Below, piece after piece: positions 6,344 to 49,015 of a stretch of 64,000 nt of DNA. The stretch comes from Dehalococcoidia bacterium (GTDB taxonomy: Bacteria > Chloroflexota > Dehalococcoidia > UBA3495), in the NCBI GenBank assembly GCA_030753265.1, contig JASMCQ010000047.1:1-64000 (forward strand), given 5' to 3'. How positions within the stretch are numbered: the stretch's first letter is position 1; every line of letters begins with the position of its first letter. A model generated the notes under the pieces. That model was given only the letters and a program-made list of their open reading frames with translations, ran no database searches and was not told the DNA's origin. Made by a program: the position numbers and the translations under genes.

Positions 6344-8650
6344 ATGGGAGACGATATTATGGACCCGCAAGACCGGCAACCCCCCAGCTCTCCGCTCTCC
6401 GGGCCTCCGGTCAACCCGGCGTTCGCGGAAGCTCTGGAGGAACTGGTTGCGGTGGCTAGGCGGGGCCATAAACCCGACAGTCCCTTTTTCAACCCATCGA
6501 ACGATTGGCTCACCGACCGCATGTCGATCTTTCAGGACCTGTCCCGTGAGAAACAAGAACAAATCTTGGAAGAGGCCCGGCAGATCGCTCAGGAGGCCGA
6601 GAAGGCCAATGCTGCCGGCAAGGCCGCCGGCCGGGCCTGGCCTGAGGTGGTGGTCCGGCTGGATAGTGGCGGCCTGGGCTTTTTCAGCCAGTTGGGTGTC
6701 GTGCGCCGGCCTGACCTGACCCAGTATTTCATCGACGGCTTCACCAGGAACCGGGATGCCCTGGCATTCAGCGAGCCCAATCAAGCCCTCTTCGCCAAAG
6801 TCTTCAGTCACATTGCCAAGAAGATGGAGGAGCACTTTGCCTCCGGTGAGACCATCGTTCAATCGGACCGGAAGATTTGCGATGTACCCGGCCGGTCCTT
6901 CCACGCCCGCCAGCTTTTGTTCGGCACCCGCTATCTCCAGATCCCCGTCATGTGGCGGCAGTTGACCTTCGATTGCCCCGATGCTGAGCGCGTTCGGACG
7001 CCCGACATTCTGGAGGTCTCCCTCCCCGAGTGGCTGACCAGCCTGGGCCTACCCGAAGACCTCAAAGCACGGATCAAAGAATCCGGCCTGACCCAACTCG
7101 TGTTCAAGGCGCCGACCAAAGGCCTGTCCCTGCACTTGGGGTTCGATTACGTGGGCGAACACAAGATGGGTCCACTGACGATCGCCATGTTCCTGGTAAA
7201 ACAGGTCAAGGGTCTGGCAGTCCAGGCGGCGCTCAGCCTGGCGCGAGCCAAGACCCTGGACGGAACCATGAAGAACACCGCCATGGTAACCGTCGGCCCG
7301 TCGCTACACGGTAAGAGCACCCTGACCATCATGCTCGATCTCGTCAACAGTGAACTCGGCAAGAGCCTCAAGTTGAAAGTAGATCCCGAGGAAGGGGTCT
7401 TCCCGATGAACGATGACATCGTGCTCGTGCAACCACTGCCGGCGCCCATCGAGACGGTGCGCGATGGGAAGCCCGTCCGCATCCCTTACTCGATTGACGG
7501 CACCGAGAACAACATGTACGCGATGCCCTTTGGGCTGAACCAGGAAGAAGACCCGATTACCTACGAGGCTGTCCGAGGGACCAAGGAGGCCCCCAACACC
7601 GAAGAGGCACTGGAGAACGTGCCGATCGACATCGACACCGGGGTCCCCAACTTCAGGCTGAACCCGGTCCGCAACATGCGGGTAACCCTCTCCCGCCCCC
7701 GCCTCGTCGCCAGGAAAGGGGCCCAGCACGTAATCGAGAGCGTTACCAGCGGGCAAGATAGCGATACCGTGCACGTGCCAATGGAGCGCACCGACCGGGT
7801 TTTCTGGCAGGCGGTAATGCGGCTGAACACGATCACCCCGCCGCTCAGGCGCCTAAACGCGAAACAGTTCGTGCGGGTACTGATGTACGGTGAAGCCGTT
7901 CAGATGGGGGCTGCGATCGGCACCATTGGCCGGCCCTACGTGGAGTATTTCTCCGACCCGTTCATCATCGGGTTGGAGGATGAGAACGCCAACTTGATGT
8001 ACCATATCCTGCAACAGTTTGAGCAGGGCGGGCTGCCCCAAGAGTACTACGCCTTCAACACCGGTGGCGTCGGCGCGGATACCAACGACGAGGCCAGCGG
8101 CGAAGGATACAAGAAGGTCACCAGGGACCTGACGTTGATGCTCACGGAAGCGCTGCTGCGGGGCGCGGTGAAGTTCGAGCATGACCCCGCGTTGCGATCG
8201 GACGTCGCCGTGGCCATTGTTGACGCCCAGGGAAAGGAAGTCCTGGACCTTCGCAAGGAGTGGCTGCCCGAGACGATCTACGGACGGGAAGAGTACATCA
8301 AGCGCATCGCGGAGTTGAGCAGAATACGGTACTACGGACGGGACGACCAGGACAAGGCCGGCATCCTCCGGTACACCAAGGTCGTCAACGAGATGTACGA
8401 TATCGAAGACATCCCCAATCCAGCCAACGAGCGGGAGCTGAGTTGGCTGCTGTCTTTTTACTGGAACGTGGACCAGGCGTACAGTTCGCTCCCCGACCTG
8501 GCGCTGCATCAAGGAGAGGGCCGGCGGCCACCGGCCGATACTCTGGAGGCCATTCAGAAGATGTACCAGGCGGGCCGGAACCAGGGCCTTGAAGTGCCCG
8601 TTGACAGCCAAGGCGCCTTGGCGGAGCTGGGGATCCGCGGGAACGGCTAG
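6344..8650 (+). CDS. PEP carboxykinase (ATP)-like protein, long form
   Basis: A 768-residue protein whose C-terminal two thirds resemble ATP-dependent PEP carboxykinase. GPSLHGKSTLTIML (about 345-358 of the longer frame) takes the place of the kinase-1a P-loop GLSGTGKTTL. PMNDDIVLV takes the place of the metal-binding segment. RLNTITPPLRRLNAKQF resembles the segment before the active site, and AFNTGGVGADTNDEASGEG resembles the NTGWTGG loop. The family is about 530 residues, so the 200-plus N-terminal residues are extra. ATG 6344 is chosen because GAGGTGGG lies just upstream; a GTG at 6278 and an ATG at 6359 are alternatives. Several canonical loop residues differ, so it may be a diverged kinase rather than a gluconeogenic enzyme. 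Not in an obvious operon. Confidence 0.6.
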   Translation: MGDDIMDPQDRQPPSSPLSGPPVNPAFAEALEELVAVARRGHKPDSPFFNPSNDWLTDRMSIFQDLSREKQEQILEEARQIAQEAEKANAAGKAAGRAWPEVVVRLDSGGLGFFSQLGVVRRPDLTQYFIDGFTRNRDALAFSEPNQALFAKVFSHIAKKMEEHFASGETIVQSDRKICDVPGRSFHARQLLFGTRYLQIPVMWRQLTFDCPDAERVRTPDILEVSLPEWLTSLGLPEDLKARIKESGLTQLVFKAPTKGLSLHLGFDYVGEHKMGPLTIAMFLVKQVKGLAVQAALSLARAKTLDGTMKNTAMVTVGPSLHGKSTLTIMLDLVNSELGKSLKLKVDPEEGVFPMNDDIVLVQPLPAPIETVRDGKPVRIPYSIDGTENNMYAMPFGLNQEEDPITYEAVRGTKEAPNTEEALENVPIDIDTGVPNFRLNPVRNMRVTLSRPRLVARKGAQHVIESVTSGQDSDTVHVPMERTDRVFWQAVMRLNTITPPLRRLNAKQFVRVLMYGEAVQMGAAIGTIGRPYVEYFSDPFIIGLEDENANLMYHILQQFEQGGLPQEYYAFNTGGVGADTNDEASGEGYKKVTRDLTLMLTEALLRGAVKFEHDPALRSDVAVAIVDAQGKEVLDLRKEWLPETIYGREEYIKRIAELSRIRYYGRDDQDKAGILRYTKVVNEMYDIEDIPNPANERELSWLLSFYWNVDQAYSSLPDLALHQGEGRRPPADTLEAIQKMYQAGRNQGLEVPVDSQGALAELGIRGNG

Positions 8651-8866
8651 GGAACTATCCCGAGGGACGGTTCGAGGAGCGTAACGCGAACGGCGGAGAA
8701 GCGCTCCGGCCATTCTTTCCGAGCTTGTCGAAGGACTGTCCTTGCCCAAGGGCGGCAGCTTTGGGTTGGTTGCCCGAAGGGCCCGCGAAGTTCGATCTCA
8801 CGACGTTGCAGCCGGCGGCGAACCCACACCGGTCCGGCGATGCGGTCACTGGCTGGAGGTGCCACC

Positions 8867-13293: not shown

Positions 13294-14154
13294 TCATGCC
13301 AGCGACTCCAGGAACCGGTCGACCGGCATCCAGTCGCCATGGCTTGGCAACTCTCCTCCACCCCAGTCCCGCAGGTGCTCTTCCGACCGGAAGAGGTTAT
13401 TATTGCCTCAGGTGCCGCCCCGGTAGACGACGGTCTCATCCGGGGACACGCGAGCCAGCGCTCCGTCCGCAACGCCGATCTGAATCCGGTCCACACAATG
13501 GGCGCAGGCGTCGTCGAGGGTCAGCGACCGTCCCCGGTACTGGCTGCTGACCAGCAGCAAGAAGTCCACGGCTCAGGATATTCCGAACCGCTCTCCCGTA
13601 TCCAGAGTCACCGTATGGAAGGAAAACCCAAGCCCATCCAGCAGGCGCTCGTGACCTTCGTTAAGGGAGTAGTGAGCGGCGCGCCGGCCATCCTCGATGA
13701 AAAGGAAGTCGATCAGGCCCAGCATGCGGAGGGCACGGTGAACACCCTGAACCGTGAGACCGAGAACCGCCGCTGTCTCCTCGGGGCGGGGCAGTGGCAA
13801 ACCCTCGCGGTGGGCCATCAAAATATGCCGCGCCACCAGTTTCTCATCCTCGGAGAGCAGGATAGATGCCGGGTGCCAGGTATCCACCTGGTCAGCCCAT
13901 CGCTTGGAGAACCCCCCCTCCCCGGCCAGGGCCTCATCCGGCAGCCGTCCTAGGGACGCCAATATCTCGCGCTGCTTTTCGGGGCCGAGGAGCGTGCCGC
14001 GCCACTGCCCCTCCAGCCGGCCGGCCAGCCGCCAGCGCAGGCCCGGATCGTCGGGGAGGCCCAACCGCTCCATGGCCTGAGGGATGCTGGTGAGGCGCAA
14101 GCCGGTGGACCAGTCCGAGGTCAGAACATCTTCCAGCCGGTGTTCGGATTCCAA
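13294..14154 (-). CDS. merB-like: Organomercurial lyase (MerB)-like protein with two predicted selenocysteines
   Basis: Reading through two in-frame UGA codons (13573-13575 and 13408-13410) gives a 286-residue MerB-family protein. The N-terminal part has the winged-helix region (about 100-160) and GFSFHTVTLDTGERFG. The first UGA is residue 194 in S-U-A-V-D-F; MerB has Cys96-x-x-Asp99 there, and Asp197 is kept. A CAHC pair follows at 217-220. The second UGA is residue 249 in GGT-U-GNNNLFRSEEHL, where MerB has Cys159 before its FF(A/R)S segment. MerB breaks carbon-mercury bonds with exactly this Cys, Asp, Cys set, so both sulfurs would be replaced by selenium. Each UGA has a GGUC-loop hairpin downstream. 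The frame is open and family-like after both UGAs and ends at UGA 13294-13296, which lacks such a hairpin. TTG start with GGAG upstream. Third or fourth gene of the merR operon. Alternative: a decayed merB with two coincident nonsense mutations, much less likely. Confidence 0.87.
13378..13395 (-). promoter_or_regulatory. SECIS-like hairpin for merB UGA at 13408-13410
   Basis: In the minus-strand RNA, CUCUUCC pairs perfectly with GGAAGAG around a GGUC tetraloop. The loop starts 20 bases after the UGA. The E. coli fdhF SECIS has the same GGUC loop 19 bases after its UGA. The element is inside the coding sequence (LFRSEE), as bacterial SECIS elements are. Confidence 0.85.
13543..13558 (-). promoter_or_regulatory. 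SECIS-like hairpin for merB UGA at 13573-13575
   Basis: In the minus-strand RNA, GCUGCU pairs with AGCAGC around a GGUC tetraloop, six base pairs in all. The loop starts 21 bases after the UGA, nearly the same geometry as the second merB hairpin and the grdB hairpins. Confidence 0.8.
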
Positions 14155-14157
14155 AAC

Positions 14158-14565
14158 CTACTCCACGCAACAGGCCATCATCGATACATCGTGGGTGAAG
14201 GCCTGGGCCACCCGTTTGATGCCTTCACTAAAGGTCCGAAAAACGTGCAGAGTATCGATGAGGTCGTCAACGGTCAGGCCGAACTTCACGGCTAGGGTGG
14301 CCTCATGAATCAAGTCGGCCGCGTTGGGCGCGACGATGTGCACCCCCAGGACCTTGGAGCTTCGCGGGTGGATGGCCATCTTGAAGACTCCCCGTTCCTC
14401 TTTGAGGGCCTGGGCCTTGGGAACGGCATCCATGTAGATGGTGCGACAAGAGCAGGCGTTGAAGCGCTGCATCTCCTGGTCCTCGGTGAGGCCCACGGCG
14501 GCCACCTGGGGATTGGTGAACACGGCGTGGGGTACGTGCTCGTAGTTGATGCTGCGCACCGGCAC
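14158..14565 (-). CDS. merA-like (fragment): Mercuric reductase C-terminal dimerisation domain, truncated
   Basis: About 135 residues matching only the C-terminal pyridine-nucleotide-disulfide oxidoreductase dimerisation domain of Mer[21 protein letters not shown] at the start, [17 protein letters not shown] in the middle, and a C-terminal MMACCVE whose vicinal Cys pair is the MerA feature that hands Hg(II) to the active site. The FAD- and NADPH-binding domains (over 300 residues) are absent; the space upstream is filled by the glutaredoxin gene. The frame is intact and the CC pair is kept, so it may be a working separate domain, or the remnant of a deletion. GTG 14565 is a tentative start without a clear ribosome binding site. 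It lies between the glutaredoxin and merB-like genes, ending four bases before the merB start. Confidence 0.6.
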
Positions 14566-14608: not shown

Positions 14609-14845
14609 TTATGCCGCCAGCAACCTCTCGAGCTTTTGGCGGTCGAAGCCGACGACCACCTCTCCATCTATCACGGTAACCGGCGTGGTCAGAACCCCGA
14701 TTCTGGTCAGTTCAGTCATGGCCGAGGCATCGTTGATGATGTCCCTCACCTGGAATGAGATACCGGTCTGGGAAAGAAACTCTTCCGTGCGGTCACAGAA
14801 GTGTCAACCATCGGGCTGAACGTAAAGGAGAACACGAGGGGCCAT
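14609..14845 (-). CDS. Glutaredoxin/thioredoxin-like selenoprotein (U-x-x-C)
   Basis: Reading UGA 14804-14806 as Sec gives a complete 78-residue glutaredoxin/NrdH-like protein: [23 protein letters not shown], with the active site U14-H-F-C17 where the family has C-x-x-C after the first beta strand. Downstream, [15 protein letters not shown] supplies the cis-proline loop and last strands, ending ERLLAA-stop. ATG 14845 is preceded by GGAGG seven bases upstream. No ordinary ORF covers this gene because the UGA is at codon 14. It sits between merR and the MerA domain and could recycle the selenols of the MerB-like enzyme or pass bound metal along. From memory, NCBI family models include thioredoxin-like (seleno)protein SaoT and MerB-like SaoL in a proposed selenocysteine-assisted organometal system, which this may match; not checked. 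Confidence 0.82.
14771..14786 (-). promoter_or_regulatory. Possible SECIS hairpin for glutaredoxin UGA
   Basis: In the minus-strand RNA GGAAG can pair with CUUUCC-type bases (five pairs, one G-U) around a six-base loop AGUUUC, whose second base is G, starting 23 bases after the UGA. A competing stronger stem (CUUCUGUG with CACGGAAG, loop ACCG) lies closer to the UGA. Weaker evidence than for the merB and grdB elements. Confidence 0.4.
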
Positions 14846-14935: not shown

Positions 14936-15421
14936 TCAAAGGCCCCGGCCGCTTCCTCTGGCCCCCGCCTTTCCTACCCGGCGGTCGTCGAGCCAGCCCA
15001 CGGCTGCCTCCCCTTCGGCGGGTGCGCTTCCCTCGATGATCCCGCATATGTCTCCGCCTAACGGTCTGCAGTCCACCAGGCCGCCCGCCTGGTCTCGCAG
15101 CGTGGAAAGCTCGGCCCGGAACTCATGGAGTTCCGCGATGGCCTTCTCAACCTGGGACAGTTTTTCTTCGAGAAGCGTTCGAACGTGGACGCACGTGGGT
15201 TCCCGGCGGTCGTGTAGCTGCAGGACGCTCTTGATCTCACTCAGCGAGAGGCCAAGGCGTTTGGCTTTTAGAACGAAGTCCAGCCGTTTCGCATCGGCTT
15301 CGCCGTAGACCCTGTATCCGGACGTGGTGCGGACAGGCTCGGGCAGCAAGCCCTCCCCTTCGTAGAAGCGGATGGTTTTCGCCGTCAGGCCAGTTGCCGC
15401 CGCCAGCTCACCGATTCTCAC
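14936..15421 (-). CDS. merR-like: MerR family metal-responsive regulator
   Basis: A 161-residue MerR-family activator. The N-terminal winged helix reads MRIGELAAATGLTAKTIRFY, with the usual EGLLPEPVRTTSGYRVY wing. A long dimerisation helix follows. Cysteines at about 77, 118 and 126 match the spacing of the three Hg(II)-binding cysteines of Tn21 MerR (82, 117, 126), arguing for a thiophilic metal or organometal ligand. GTG start with GGAGG seven bases upstream. It is the first gene of the operon and is followed after 90 bases by the Sec-glutaredoxin. It presumably binds the dyad just upstream, repressing and, with metal, activating its own operon by untwisting the long spacer. Confidence 0.88.
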   Translation of the reverse strand: MRIGELAAATGLTAKTIRFYEGEGLLPEPVRTTSGYRVYGEADAKRLDFVLKAKRLGLSLSEIKSVLQLHDRREPTCVHVRTLLEEKLSQVEKAIAELHEFRAELSTLRDQAGGLVDCRPLGGDICGIIEGSAPAEGEAAVGWLDDRRVGKAGARGSGRGL

Positions 15422-47650: not shown

Positions 47651-49015
47651 GTGACAAACGGCGCGACAGCCAAAGTAAGGGTGGTGCACTACATCAACCA
47701 GTTCTTCGCGGGACTGGGCTCCGAAGAAGCCAACGACACACCTTTGCAGGTGAAGGAAGGCCCGATCGGACCCGGCCGGGCGCTGCAGCAGGCCTTGGGA
47801 GAGCGGGGCAGCGTGGTATCCACCATCTTCGCCGGAGATGACTTCTTTGTTTCCAACCAGGAAGAAGCTGTCGCCCAAGTTGCTGCTTCGCTGCGGGAGA
47901 TAAAACCTGACCTGCTTCTCGCCGGACCGGCCTTCGACGCCGGCCGCTACGGTCTGGCCTGTGCGTTGGTGTGTAAGACGGCCTGGGATATGGGCATACC
48001 CGCGGTAACGGGGATGCACCCAGACAACGCGGGCCTCTCTGCCTACCGGCAGGCCGTTCTAGCCATGCCCACCGGCGAAACTCCCGTGGAGATGGCCGCC
48101 AACTTGAAGAGCATGTTTGGGCTGGGACTGAAGCTGGTGCGACAGGAGCCTCTGGGGCCGGCCGATGTCGAGGGGTTTCTGCCCACTGGAATGCGGCGCC
48201 TGCACCAGCGAGAAAAGCCCGGCGGCCAACGTGCCGTTGACATGGTGCTCGACAGGGTGCTGGGCCGGCCCTTCGTGTCGGAGATCCCGGCCCGGCCTTA
48301 CGAGGCGGTGGACCCGCCGGAGCCGATCTTGGACCTGCGAGGCGTCGCCCTTGGGCTGGTCACCTCGGCGGGGATTGTGCCCAAGGGCAACCCGGACCAA
48401 CAGTCCAGCGCTATTCCCCGCAAGTTGGTGTCGTATAACATCACGGGCCTGAACGCCCTGATCGTGGACGATTGGGAGTCGGTCCACGGAGGATTCAAAG
48501 GCTACATCTACAACACCGTCAACCCCAACTACGCCATGCCGCTACCCGCCCTGCGAGCGGCCGAGGCCAAGGGGTTGATCAAGGCCATCTATCCCAAGGT
48601 CTTCTCGGTGGTGGGCGCCGGCTGCCCGGTATCGGACGCCAAACGCATCGGCGGAGAGATAGCCCGGCAGTTCAAGAACGACGGGGTGCGGGCGGCGATC
48701 ATCGCCTCCACTTGAGGGAGCTGCAATCGTTGCGGCGCAACGATGACCAAAGAACTGGAACGGGAAGGCATAGTGGTGGCGATTATCAGCGCCCTCCCGG
48801 CCGTACCGTTATCCCTCGGCGCGCACCGCATAGTCCGTGGAGTCCGGGTCGAACACCTTTGCGGTGATCCGAACCTCTCGCGGGATCGCGACCGAGAGTT
48901 GATGTACAGCATAGTGGAAACCGCGCTGGAGGCGATCCAAACTCCGGTGACCAAGCCCACGGTCTTCGACCCATCCTCCGACAGGTCCTCCAGGGAAGTG
49001 GCCCATGCGGCTTGA
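47651..49015 (+). CDS. grdB-like: Glycine/betaine/sarcosine reductase component B selenoprotein-like (GrdB), copy 2
   Basis: With UGA 48713-48715 read as Sec this is a 454-residue GrdB-family protein with Sec at 355. It parallels copy 1 throughout: VVHYINQFFAGLGSEE, GPAFDAGRYGLACALVC, GMHPDNAGL, VHGGFKGYIYNTVNPNYAMPL, then U-G-S-C-N-R-C-G-A-T-M-T-K-E-L-E and VPLSLGAHRIVRGV. It is clearly a paralogue rather than a recent duplicate; many positions differ. GTG start with GAGGAGG upstream. The gene overlaps its grdE partner by 11 bases. Unlike copy 1 it has no catabolic genes immediately downstream, so the two pairs probably serve different substrates. Confidence 0.88.
48726..48744 (+). promoter_or_regulatory. 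SECIS hairpin in grdB copy 2
   Basis: AUCGUUGC-GGC-GCAACGAU, identical to the copy 1 element, with the loop starting 19 bases after the UGA. The base following UGA and most of the 10-base spacer are also the same. Confidence 0.85.

Follow-up and report, generated by a model that had tools for sequence, protein, structure and literature searches.

A Chloroflexota relative of the organomercurial lyase MerB with UGA, likely encoding selenocysteine, at both catalytic-cysteine positions

Introduction

The organomercurial lyase MerB (PF03243; structures 3f0o and 5c17) uses a catalytic pair of cysteines, Cys96 and Cys159, together with Asp99 (PMC8261052; PMC4525700). A MerB-like protein, SaoL (NF040728), belongs to a proposed selenocysteine (Sec)-assisted organometal system and, in the accessible text of the sources, is listed as having a single Sec, placed in a CU motif (PMC13188914; PMC9312934). 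Here we describe a MerB-like gene interrupted by two in-frame UGA codons (13294..14154, minus strand) on contig JASMCQ010000047.1 of a Dehalococcoidia bacterium (phylum Chloroflexota); the stretch analysed, positions 1 to 64,000 of that contig, is called the window below.

The window protein shares with MerB the fold of the catalytic part, the positions of the catalytic pair and an acid three residues after the first of them. It differs in that UGA replaces the Cys codon at both catalytic positions and, as in the whole of its clade (clade 1), in about 95 extra N-terminal residues. In the accessible part of the literature searched, no description of a MerB with two Sec residues was found, and in the text seen of a MerB survey 'selen' appears only in the reference list (PMC8261052). 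As far as these sources go, a MerB-like selenoprotein with one Sec is known, and a MerB relative with two appears to be new. Relatives, hairpins, coding constraint, the Sec genes of related genomes and the predicted fold together support a proposal made in an earlier, sequence-only reading of this DNA, namely a MerB-like protein with Sec codons at both catalytic positions. The protein is quite probably a di-selenol lyase that cleaves carbon–metal bonds, most likely carbon–mercury bonds.

A MerB-family protein read through two UGA codons

The reading frame runs on the minus strand from a TTG start at 14154 to a final TGA at 13296-13294, encodes 286 residues and has no stops besides the two UGAs. 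Pfam MerB matches residues 180-266 of the read-through protein at 28.9 bits, narrowly above the cut-off of 27. The structure model of the same protein has a predicted local distance difference test score (pLDDT) of 90, and a Foldseek search with it returned 11 PDB chains at E<=0.001, every one MerB or MerB2, so that a MerB fold is predicted. Frame, coordinates, Pfam match and predicted fold agree on the single continuous MerB-family protein that had been proposed. The NCBIfam MerB equivalog NF009710 (cut-off 193 bits) is not reached, the catalytic part scoring 10.6 bits and the whole protein giving no match. Model residues 99-176 look like winged-helix regulators.

The first UGA (13573..13575, minus strand; residue 194, site 1) aligns with MerB Cys96 and the cysteine of CAIS in MerB2, and the second (13408..13410, minus strand; residue 249, site 2) with MerB Cys159 and the cysteine of GGTC in MerB2. 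When the MerB2 structure 5c17 is aligned over residues 165-280, the cysteines of its FAWCAIS and GGTC motifs fall on both UGAs, as the sequence-only reading had claimed from MerB. Because established MerB work names Cys96, Asp99 and Cys159, the two UGA sites correspond to the catalytic pair. The catalytic Asp had also been placed correctly: Asp197 (GAC, 13564..13566, minus strand) stands at the MerB Asp99 position, three residues after the first UGA in the motif U194-A-V-D197, where MerB2 has Ser. All three catalytic positions of MerB align, with the Asp present and both Cys codons replaced by UGA, so that the protein would have the MerB catalytic set only if UGA is read as Sec and Sec is accepted in place of Cys. 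The residue before each UGA is not Cys (S-U-A at site 1, T-U-G at site 2). An acid at +3, Asp or Glu, is kept in all compared genes with UGA at both sites (UGA/UGA genes) except one and its copy. The structure alignment used 44 of 61 possible rows, including the window and six further loci; locus L004 was omitted for its extra stops.

Relatives and the states of the two sites

Protein homologues end exactly at site 1 in 54 of 61 cases; the other seven carry a Cys there and terminate precisely at site 2, so that the homologues do not all stop at the first UGA. None of the 61 extends past site 2. Sixty (53 and 7) were aligned, and the 61st (P0002; 193 amino acids, 98% identical) has the same endpoint. 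Most come from short metagenome contigs, and the type of their stop codon is deduced from the protein ends.

Seven loci (L001-L007) emerged when 84,980 species genomes were scanned, all in Chloroflexota and all with UGA at both sites. A sample of 400 Chloroflexota genomes contained two clade-1 carriers (G001 and G080), each with two TGAs, and among 298 genomes from the class of G005 this genome was the sole carrier. In the order of G001, 17 of 250 genomes matched; five carry clade-1 genes (G001-G004, G006), and the rest led to a divergent clade 2, which is related to clade 1 at 98.9% probability in a profile-profile comparison. Scores of clade 2 with Pfam MerB reach 74.8 bits (its first member), and the match to MerB2, at 2.4e-15, places both UGAs on the MerB2 cysteines. 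A search for clade 2 gave matches in 27 of the 247 genomes from the order; in three of these, weak matches to clade-1 genes make up all or part of the result. All 26 full-length matches have UGA at both sites. One weak match with a single TGA (G552:C138) showed no MerB motif in a pattern search and was rejected. A search of 72,556 plasmid records gave no match. The UGA/UGA genes read number 43, all from Chloroflexota: nine of clade 1 including the window gene, 31 of clade 2 and three of a third clade.

Over the 400 phylum genomes, Pfam MerB gave 69 matches in 56 genomes; 65 genes were read, and the remaining four matches are all partial (G397, G372, G214:C82, G176). The states at sites 1 and 2 are Cys/Cys in 41 genes, Cys/UGA in 17, UGA/UGA in seven and UGA/Cys in none. 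The UGAs thus align with Cys of homologues, as in selenoproteins, both sites being Cys in 41 of the 65 genes and in MerB2. In a tree of 84 domains the UGA/UGA genes fall into three separate groups, which takes three changes, at least two of them forced by well-supported branches; the window gene sits in a clade of nine rows with support 100/100. Since only 136 columns were usable, the deep forks of this tree are weak (L113, L144 and L146, partial or frame-broken, were omitted). The absence of a UGA/Cys class suggests that site 2 changed to UGA first.

The third UGA/UGA clade (L138, L142, L143) has the motifs AAUAIDA ... FURxSxFFWSEEH and a long branch apart from the other two. The 17 Cys/UGA genes (L097, L102, L104, L107-L109, L112, L114-L117, L120, L122, L127, L130, L132, L135), of which seven scanned or their like score far under the SaoL cut-off, appear to form another, unnamed group of single-Sec MerB proteins.

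Comparison with SaoL

The window protein and SaoL are both MerB-like and share UGA/Sec, with a weak profile match. Membership in SaoL, which the earlier reading had raised, was rejected: the whole protein scores 19.7 bits and its catalytic part 20.9, where the cut-off is 140. SaoL, as described in the accessible sources, has a single Sec in a CU motif, whereas the window protein has two UGAs, neither preceded by Cys. Ten family members match the SaoL model at 19.7-56.8 bits against the same cut-off; for six clade-2 members the comparison gave a best E-value only. The match of L135 to the SaoL model stops at site 2, where residue 170 pairs with model position 159; from this, the Sec of SaoL probably lies one residue after the catalytic Cys. 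Among seven window proteins scanned, no sao-type neighbours were found.

Hairpins and coding constraint at the UGA codons

SECIS (Sec insertion sequence)-like hairpins lie on the minus strand behind UGA 1 (13543..13558; GGUC loop at 13552-13549; z-score -2.51) and UGA 2 (13378..13395; GGUC loop at 13388-13385; z-score -2.40). GGUC hairpins behind both codons had been predicted with stems beginning at +21 and +20; the hairpins stand, and what begins at these positions is the loop rather than the stem. When the residues of the window gene are recoded synonymously, a fraction of 0.010 of the recodings at site 1 and 0.003 at site 2 has hairpins as stable. The same comparison in 22 genes gives a mean z of -2.28 at site 2 (17/22 at <=0.05) and -1.70 at site 1 (10/22 at <=0.05), against -0.15 at 309 control positions in six of these genes (20/309 at <=0.05). 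These values uphold the claim that UGAs and hairpins coincide beyond chance.

The stem behind UGA 2 is CUCUUCC/GGAAGAG with a GGUC loop at constant position. In a comparison of 45 genes, from which L130 was omitted for its different spacing, the inner five pairs of this hairpin are standard in all 45, the GGUC loop occurs in 39, and in four genes a compensatory change turns the closing CG pair into UA. At site 1, five inner pairs and the GGUC loop are kept in nine of nine clade-1 genes, one pair being CG in five and UA in four. Among the 65 phylum MerB genes, the mean hairpin z at UGA codons is -1.58 (n=17) and -1.34 (n=7) at site 2 and -0.98 (n=7) at site 1, whereas at Cys codons it is 0.05 (n=41) at site 2 and -0.28 (n=17) and 0.01 (n=41) at site 1. 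Hairpins go with UGA, not with Cys codons, at identical sites.

Nei-Gojobori ratios of nonsynonymous to synonymous substitution (dN/dS) between the UGAs are 0.08-0.33 in 13 of 14 gene pairs, and those after UGA 2 are 0.085-0.577 in 13 computable pairs. Coding constraint mostly persists beyond both UGAs. That the UGAs are true stops, leaving a pseudogene or a truncated protein of 193 residues, would accord with annotation pipelines, which end the protein there, and with a few broken copies elsewhere. This explanation is scarcely credible, because the same two codons are affected in 43 genes, dN/dS stays low past them, hairpins track UGA rather than Cys, and the alternative at site 1 is Cys (7/61 homologues).

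Selenocysteine machinery and the genetic code

Sec machinery was surveyed in relatives that carry the gene, which are draft genomes without completeness figures, and in the window. SelA scores above the cut-off in 18 of 20 carrier genomes (6/7 and 12/13), and SelB in 5/7 and 8/10, which makes 13 of 16 different genomes since G005 was counted in both sets; tRNA-Sec is found in six of seven relatives. In G450, which has the gene on a 3.4-Mb contig, SelA, SelB and the UGA/UGA gene occur together. No SelA or SelB was found within the window. Most of the related carriers surveyed have the Sec machinery that the earlier reading asked for, and G005 has none of SelA, SelB and tRNA-Sec over the cut-off.

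The window also holds a gene of the GrdB selenoprotein family (47651..49015, plus strand; TIGR01918 376 bits, cut-off 65.45) with an in-frame UGA at 48713-48715. Rfam SECIS_4 matches directly behind this codon (48716-48753, plus strand; 39.8 bits, gathering threshold 38), and therefore a recognised Sec gene lies on the same contig as the MerB-like gene.

Any residue inserted at UGA would open the frame, so that reading as another amino acid, through a code change or a suppressor tRNA, also has to be considered. It is very improbable: TGA terminates 18 of 48 long non-overlapping open reading frames (ORFs) in the window, which argues against wholesale reassignment, UGA is confined to the Cys sites with hairpins behind, and tRNA-Sec is present in six of seven relatives. 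SelB and tRNA-Sec would instead act at both hairpins, inserting Sec-194 and Sec-249.

Several observations weigh against the assignment of a Sec/Sec lyase. The Pfam MerB score of the window protein is weak. For 12 of the 22 genes the site-1 hairpin falls short of significance, z exceeding -0.7 in L038, L039, L041, L045 and L046, and L138 and L143 have no hairpin excess at either site. The SECIS-like hairpins downstream of the UGAs have no match among the Rfam SECIS families in the MerB-like gene, even at E 10; the Rfam scan of the gene below E 10 returned just two chance eukaryotic RNAs. L037 and its copy L056 have Ala at +3. The L045/L046 pair has a dN/dS of 0.93 between the UGAs, on eight changes only. 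L004 has TAA and TAG stops as well, perhaps through damage or poor sequencing; broken copies occur in G518 and G466:C61, and G553 has a partial or broken one. G005 carries the gene with no SelA, SelB or tRNA-Sec over the cut-off, G605 lacks SelA and has SelB, and G553 has neither over the cut-off. SelA is common across the order (199/247 genomes); with this background its co-occurrence adds little and is permissive evidence only. Finally, neither inspection by eye nor tblastn with the genes of the window showed a mer gene at the clade-1 loci L003, L006 and L007, and inspection by eye showed none at clade-2 loci. Because mer genes adjoin some clade-1 copies only, a mercury substrate is not established family-wide.

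Predicted mechanism

In MerB the metal is held between Cys96 and Cys159, Asp99 moves the proton, and thiols are needed for Hg(II) release, according to the text seen (PMC4525700). Given this chemistry, two selenolates would be expected to follow the same path. One selenolate and then the other would bind the metal, Asp197 would hand a proton to the carbon so that the alkane departs, and Hg(II) would remain between Sec-194 and Sec-249 until thiols take it away. Selenium would speed binding and protonolysis at trace substrate levels, and the tighter Se–Hg bonds would make capture and cleavage faster and release slower. Selones mimic organomercurial lyase and react faster than their sulfur analogues, according to the accessible part of the report (PMC11639659). 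Since freeing Hg(II) from two seleniums is expected to be the difficult step, a glutaredoxin-like protein with the motif UHFC and a C-terminal MerA piece with a Cys-Cys pair, both encoded next to the gene in the window only (see below), might, speculatively, help to strip Hg(II).

A bolder scenario, which we hold to be possible and on balance doubtful, is that Chloroflexota converted MerB into a di-selenol enzyme in steps and repeatedly, Sec appearing at the Cys159-type position before the Cys96-type one; this would give the first known Se–metal–Se centre, in a scavenger of trace organomercury stripped by the Sec-glutaredoxin and the MerA Cys-Cys tail. If the Sec assignments are correct, a family known for strictly conserved catalytic cysteines has swapped both for Sec, with a visible series of Cys/Cys, Cys/Sec and Sec/Sec in which Sec/Cys is absent (65 genes), providing a natural experiment on the role of selenium in carbon–metal bond cleavage. 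These genes would then escape mercury-gene surveys that require the two Cys, as well as gene callers that treat UGA as a stop.

Genomic neighbourhood and substrate

On the same strand, the order of genes in the window is a MerR-family regulator, a glutaredoxin-like gene, a C-terminal MerA piece and the UGA/UGA gene. The window has in common with the classical mer operon a gene of the MerR family and a MerA piece, both upstream and co-directional; unlike in that operon, the window MerA lacks the FAD/NAD domains and the regulator is below the cut-off for mercury MerR. No MerT or MerP was seen among the neighbours scanned. The regulator (14936..15421, minus strand) scores 95.2 bits with mercury MerR TIGR02051 (cut-off 150.85); its best models are of the Zn/Cd type, led by PRK09514 (Zn; 114.5 of 143 bits), and none exceeds its cut-off. 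Of the MerR control proposed earlier, the MerR-family assignment holds and the mercury-MerR identity does not.

The glutaredoxin-like gene (14609..14845, minus strand; Pfam Glutaredoxin 45.7 bits, cut-off 22.9) has an in-frame UGA at 14804-14806. Like the Sec glutaredoxins of the UXX-star type it carries U-x-x-C at the glutaredoxin site, here U-H-F-C; its scores of 41 bits with Uxx_star and 59 bits with YruB are below the respective cut-offs of 66 and 88.55. Among the matches listed (120 of 147), all 120 homologues start after the UGA position, which suggests that a Sec form of this glutaredoxin is widespread and mis-annotated. The loop of the hairpin in this gene begins about 11 nucleotides after the UGA, nearer than the usual UGA-to-hairpin spacing. 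As a general partner of the UGA/UGA gene the glutaredoxin was rejected, since tblastn with the window gene gave no match in L001-L007 and the pairing occurs in the window only.

The MerA piece (14158..14562, minus strand) corresponds to the C-terminal dimerisation part (Pyr_redox_dim 95.9 bits), covers MerA model positions 334-465 only and ends in ...MMACCVE. The N-terminal two thirds are absent, and the true start is uncertain; it may be a deletion, a misassembly or a short gene of its own. A stand-alone family was considered and rejected, since the 120 matches listed look like MerA fragments, many of them truncated or on short contigs.

Other clade-1 loci have fuller mer contexts. L161 has a full MerA upstream, and L005 has a full MerA together with a protein that combines HMA and zf_CopZ. 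The end of the L005 MerA gene (7391-8806) reads LSCCI, TGA, Gly, TAG, where the TGA may either terminate the protein normally or encode a Sec two residues from its end. In L001 (4876-6850) and L002 (4988-6825) a Cys/Cys MerB lies directly upstream of the UGA/UGA gene, and between these two genes stands a short Cys-rich ORF (DCCVFCSY), which we take to be GDCCVxC.

This patchy mer context, together with the strong divergence of the clades, leaves room for a Sec/Sec lyase acting on another carbon–metal or carbon–metalloid bond, in organotin, organolead, organo-arsenic or some other compound. The SaoL branch is named only an organometal lyase in NCBIfam, and the best-scoring models for the neighbouring regulator are of the Zn and Cd/Pb types. 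Since L005 and L161 have a MerA next to their clade-1 gene and the window has a MerA piece, such a substrate seems unlikely, though it deserves serious consideration. It is rather improbable that both UGAs encode Sec in a selenium-based metal sponge, redox protein or sensor that is no organometal lyase. Clade 2 has no mer neighbours by eye, the clade-2 gene of L149 lies between an HTH/PBP-like gene and a solute-binding-protein gene, the N-terminal part (model residues 99-176) is winged-helix-like, and two close selenols could form a diselenide. MerB itself, however, has an N-terminal domain of the winged-helix type (Pfam HTH_15; weak in one of seven clade-2 members), the +3 acid, which a sponge would not need, is kept in nearly all UGA/UGA genes, and MerA or a Cys/Cys MerB adjoins four clade-1 genes. 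A Sec/Sec lyase with a mercury substrate is preferred over both.

By Pfam, the clade-2 gene of L149 stands beside a regulator with HTH plus PBP-like parts and an ATP-binding cassette (ABC) transporter with a solute-binding protein of the Pfam family SBP_bac_11, and by eye L156 has the same neighbours.
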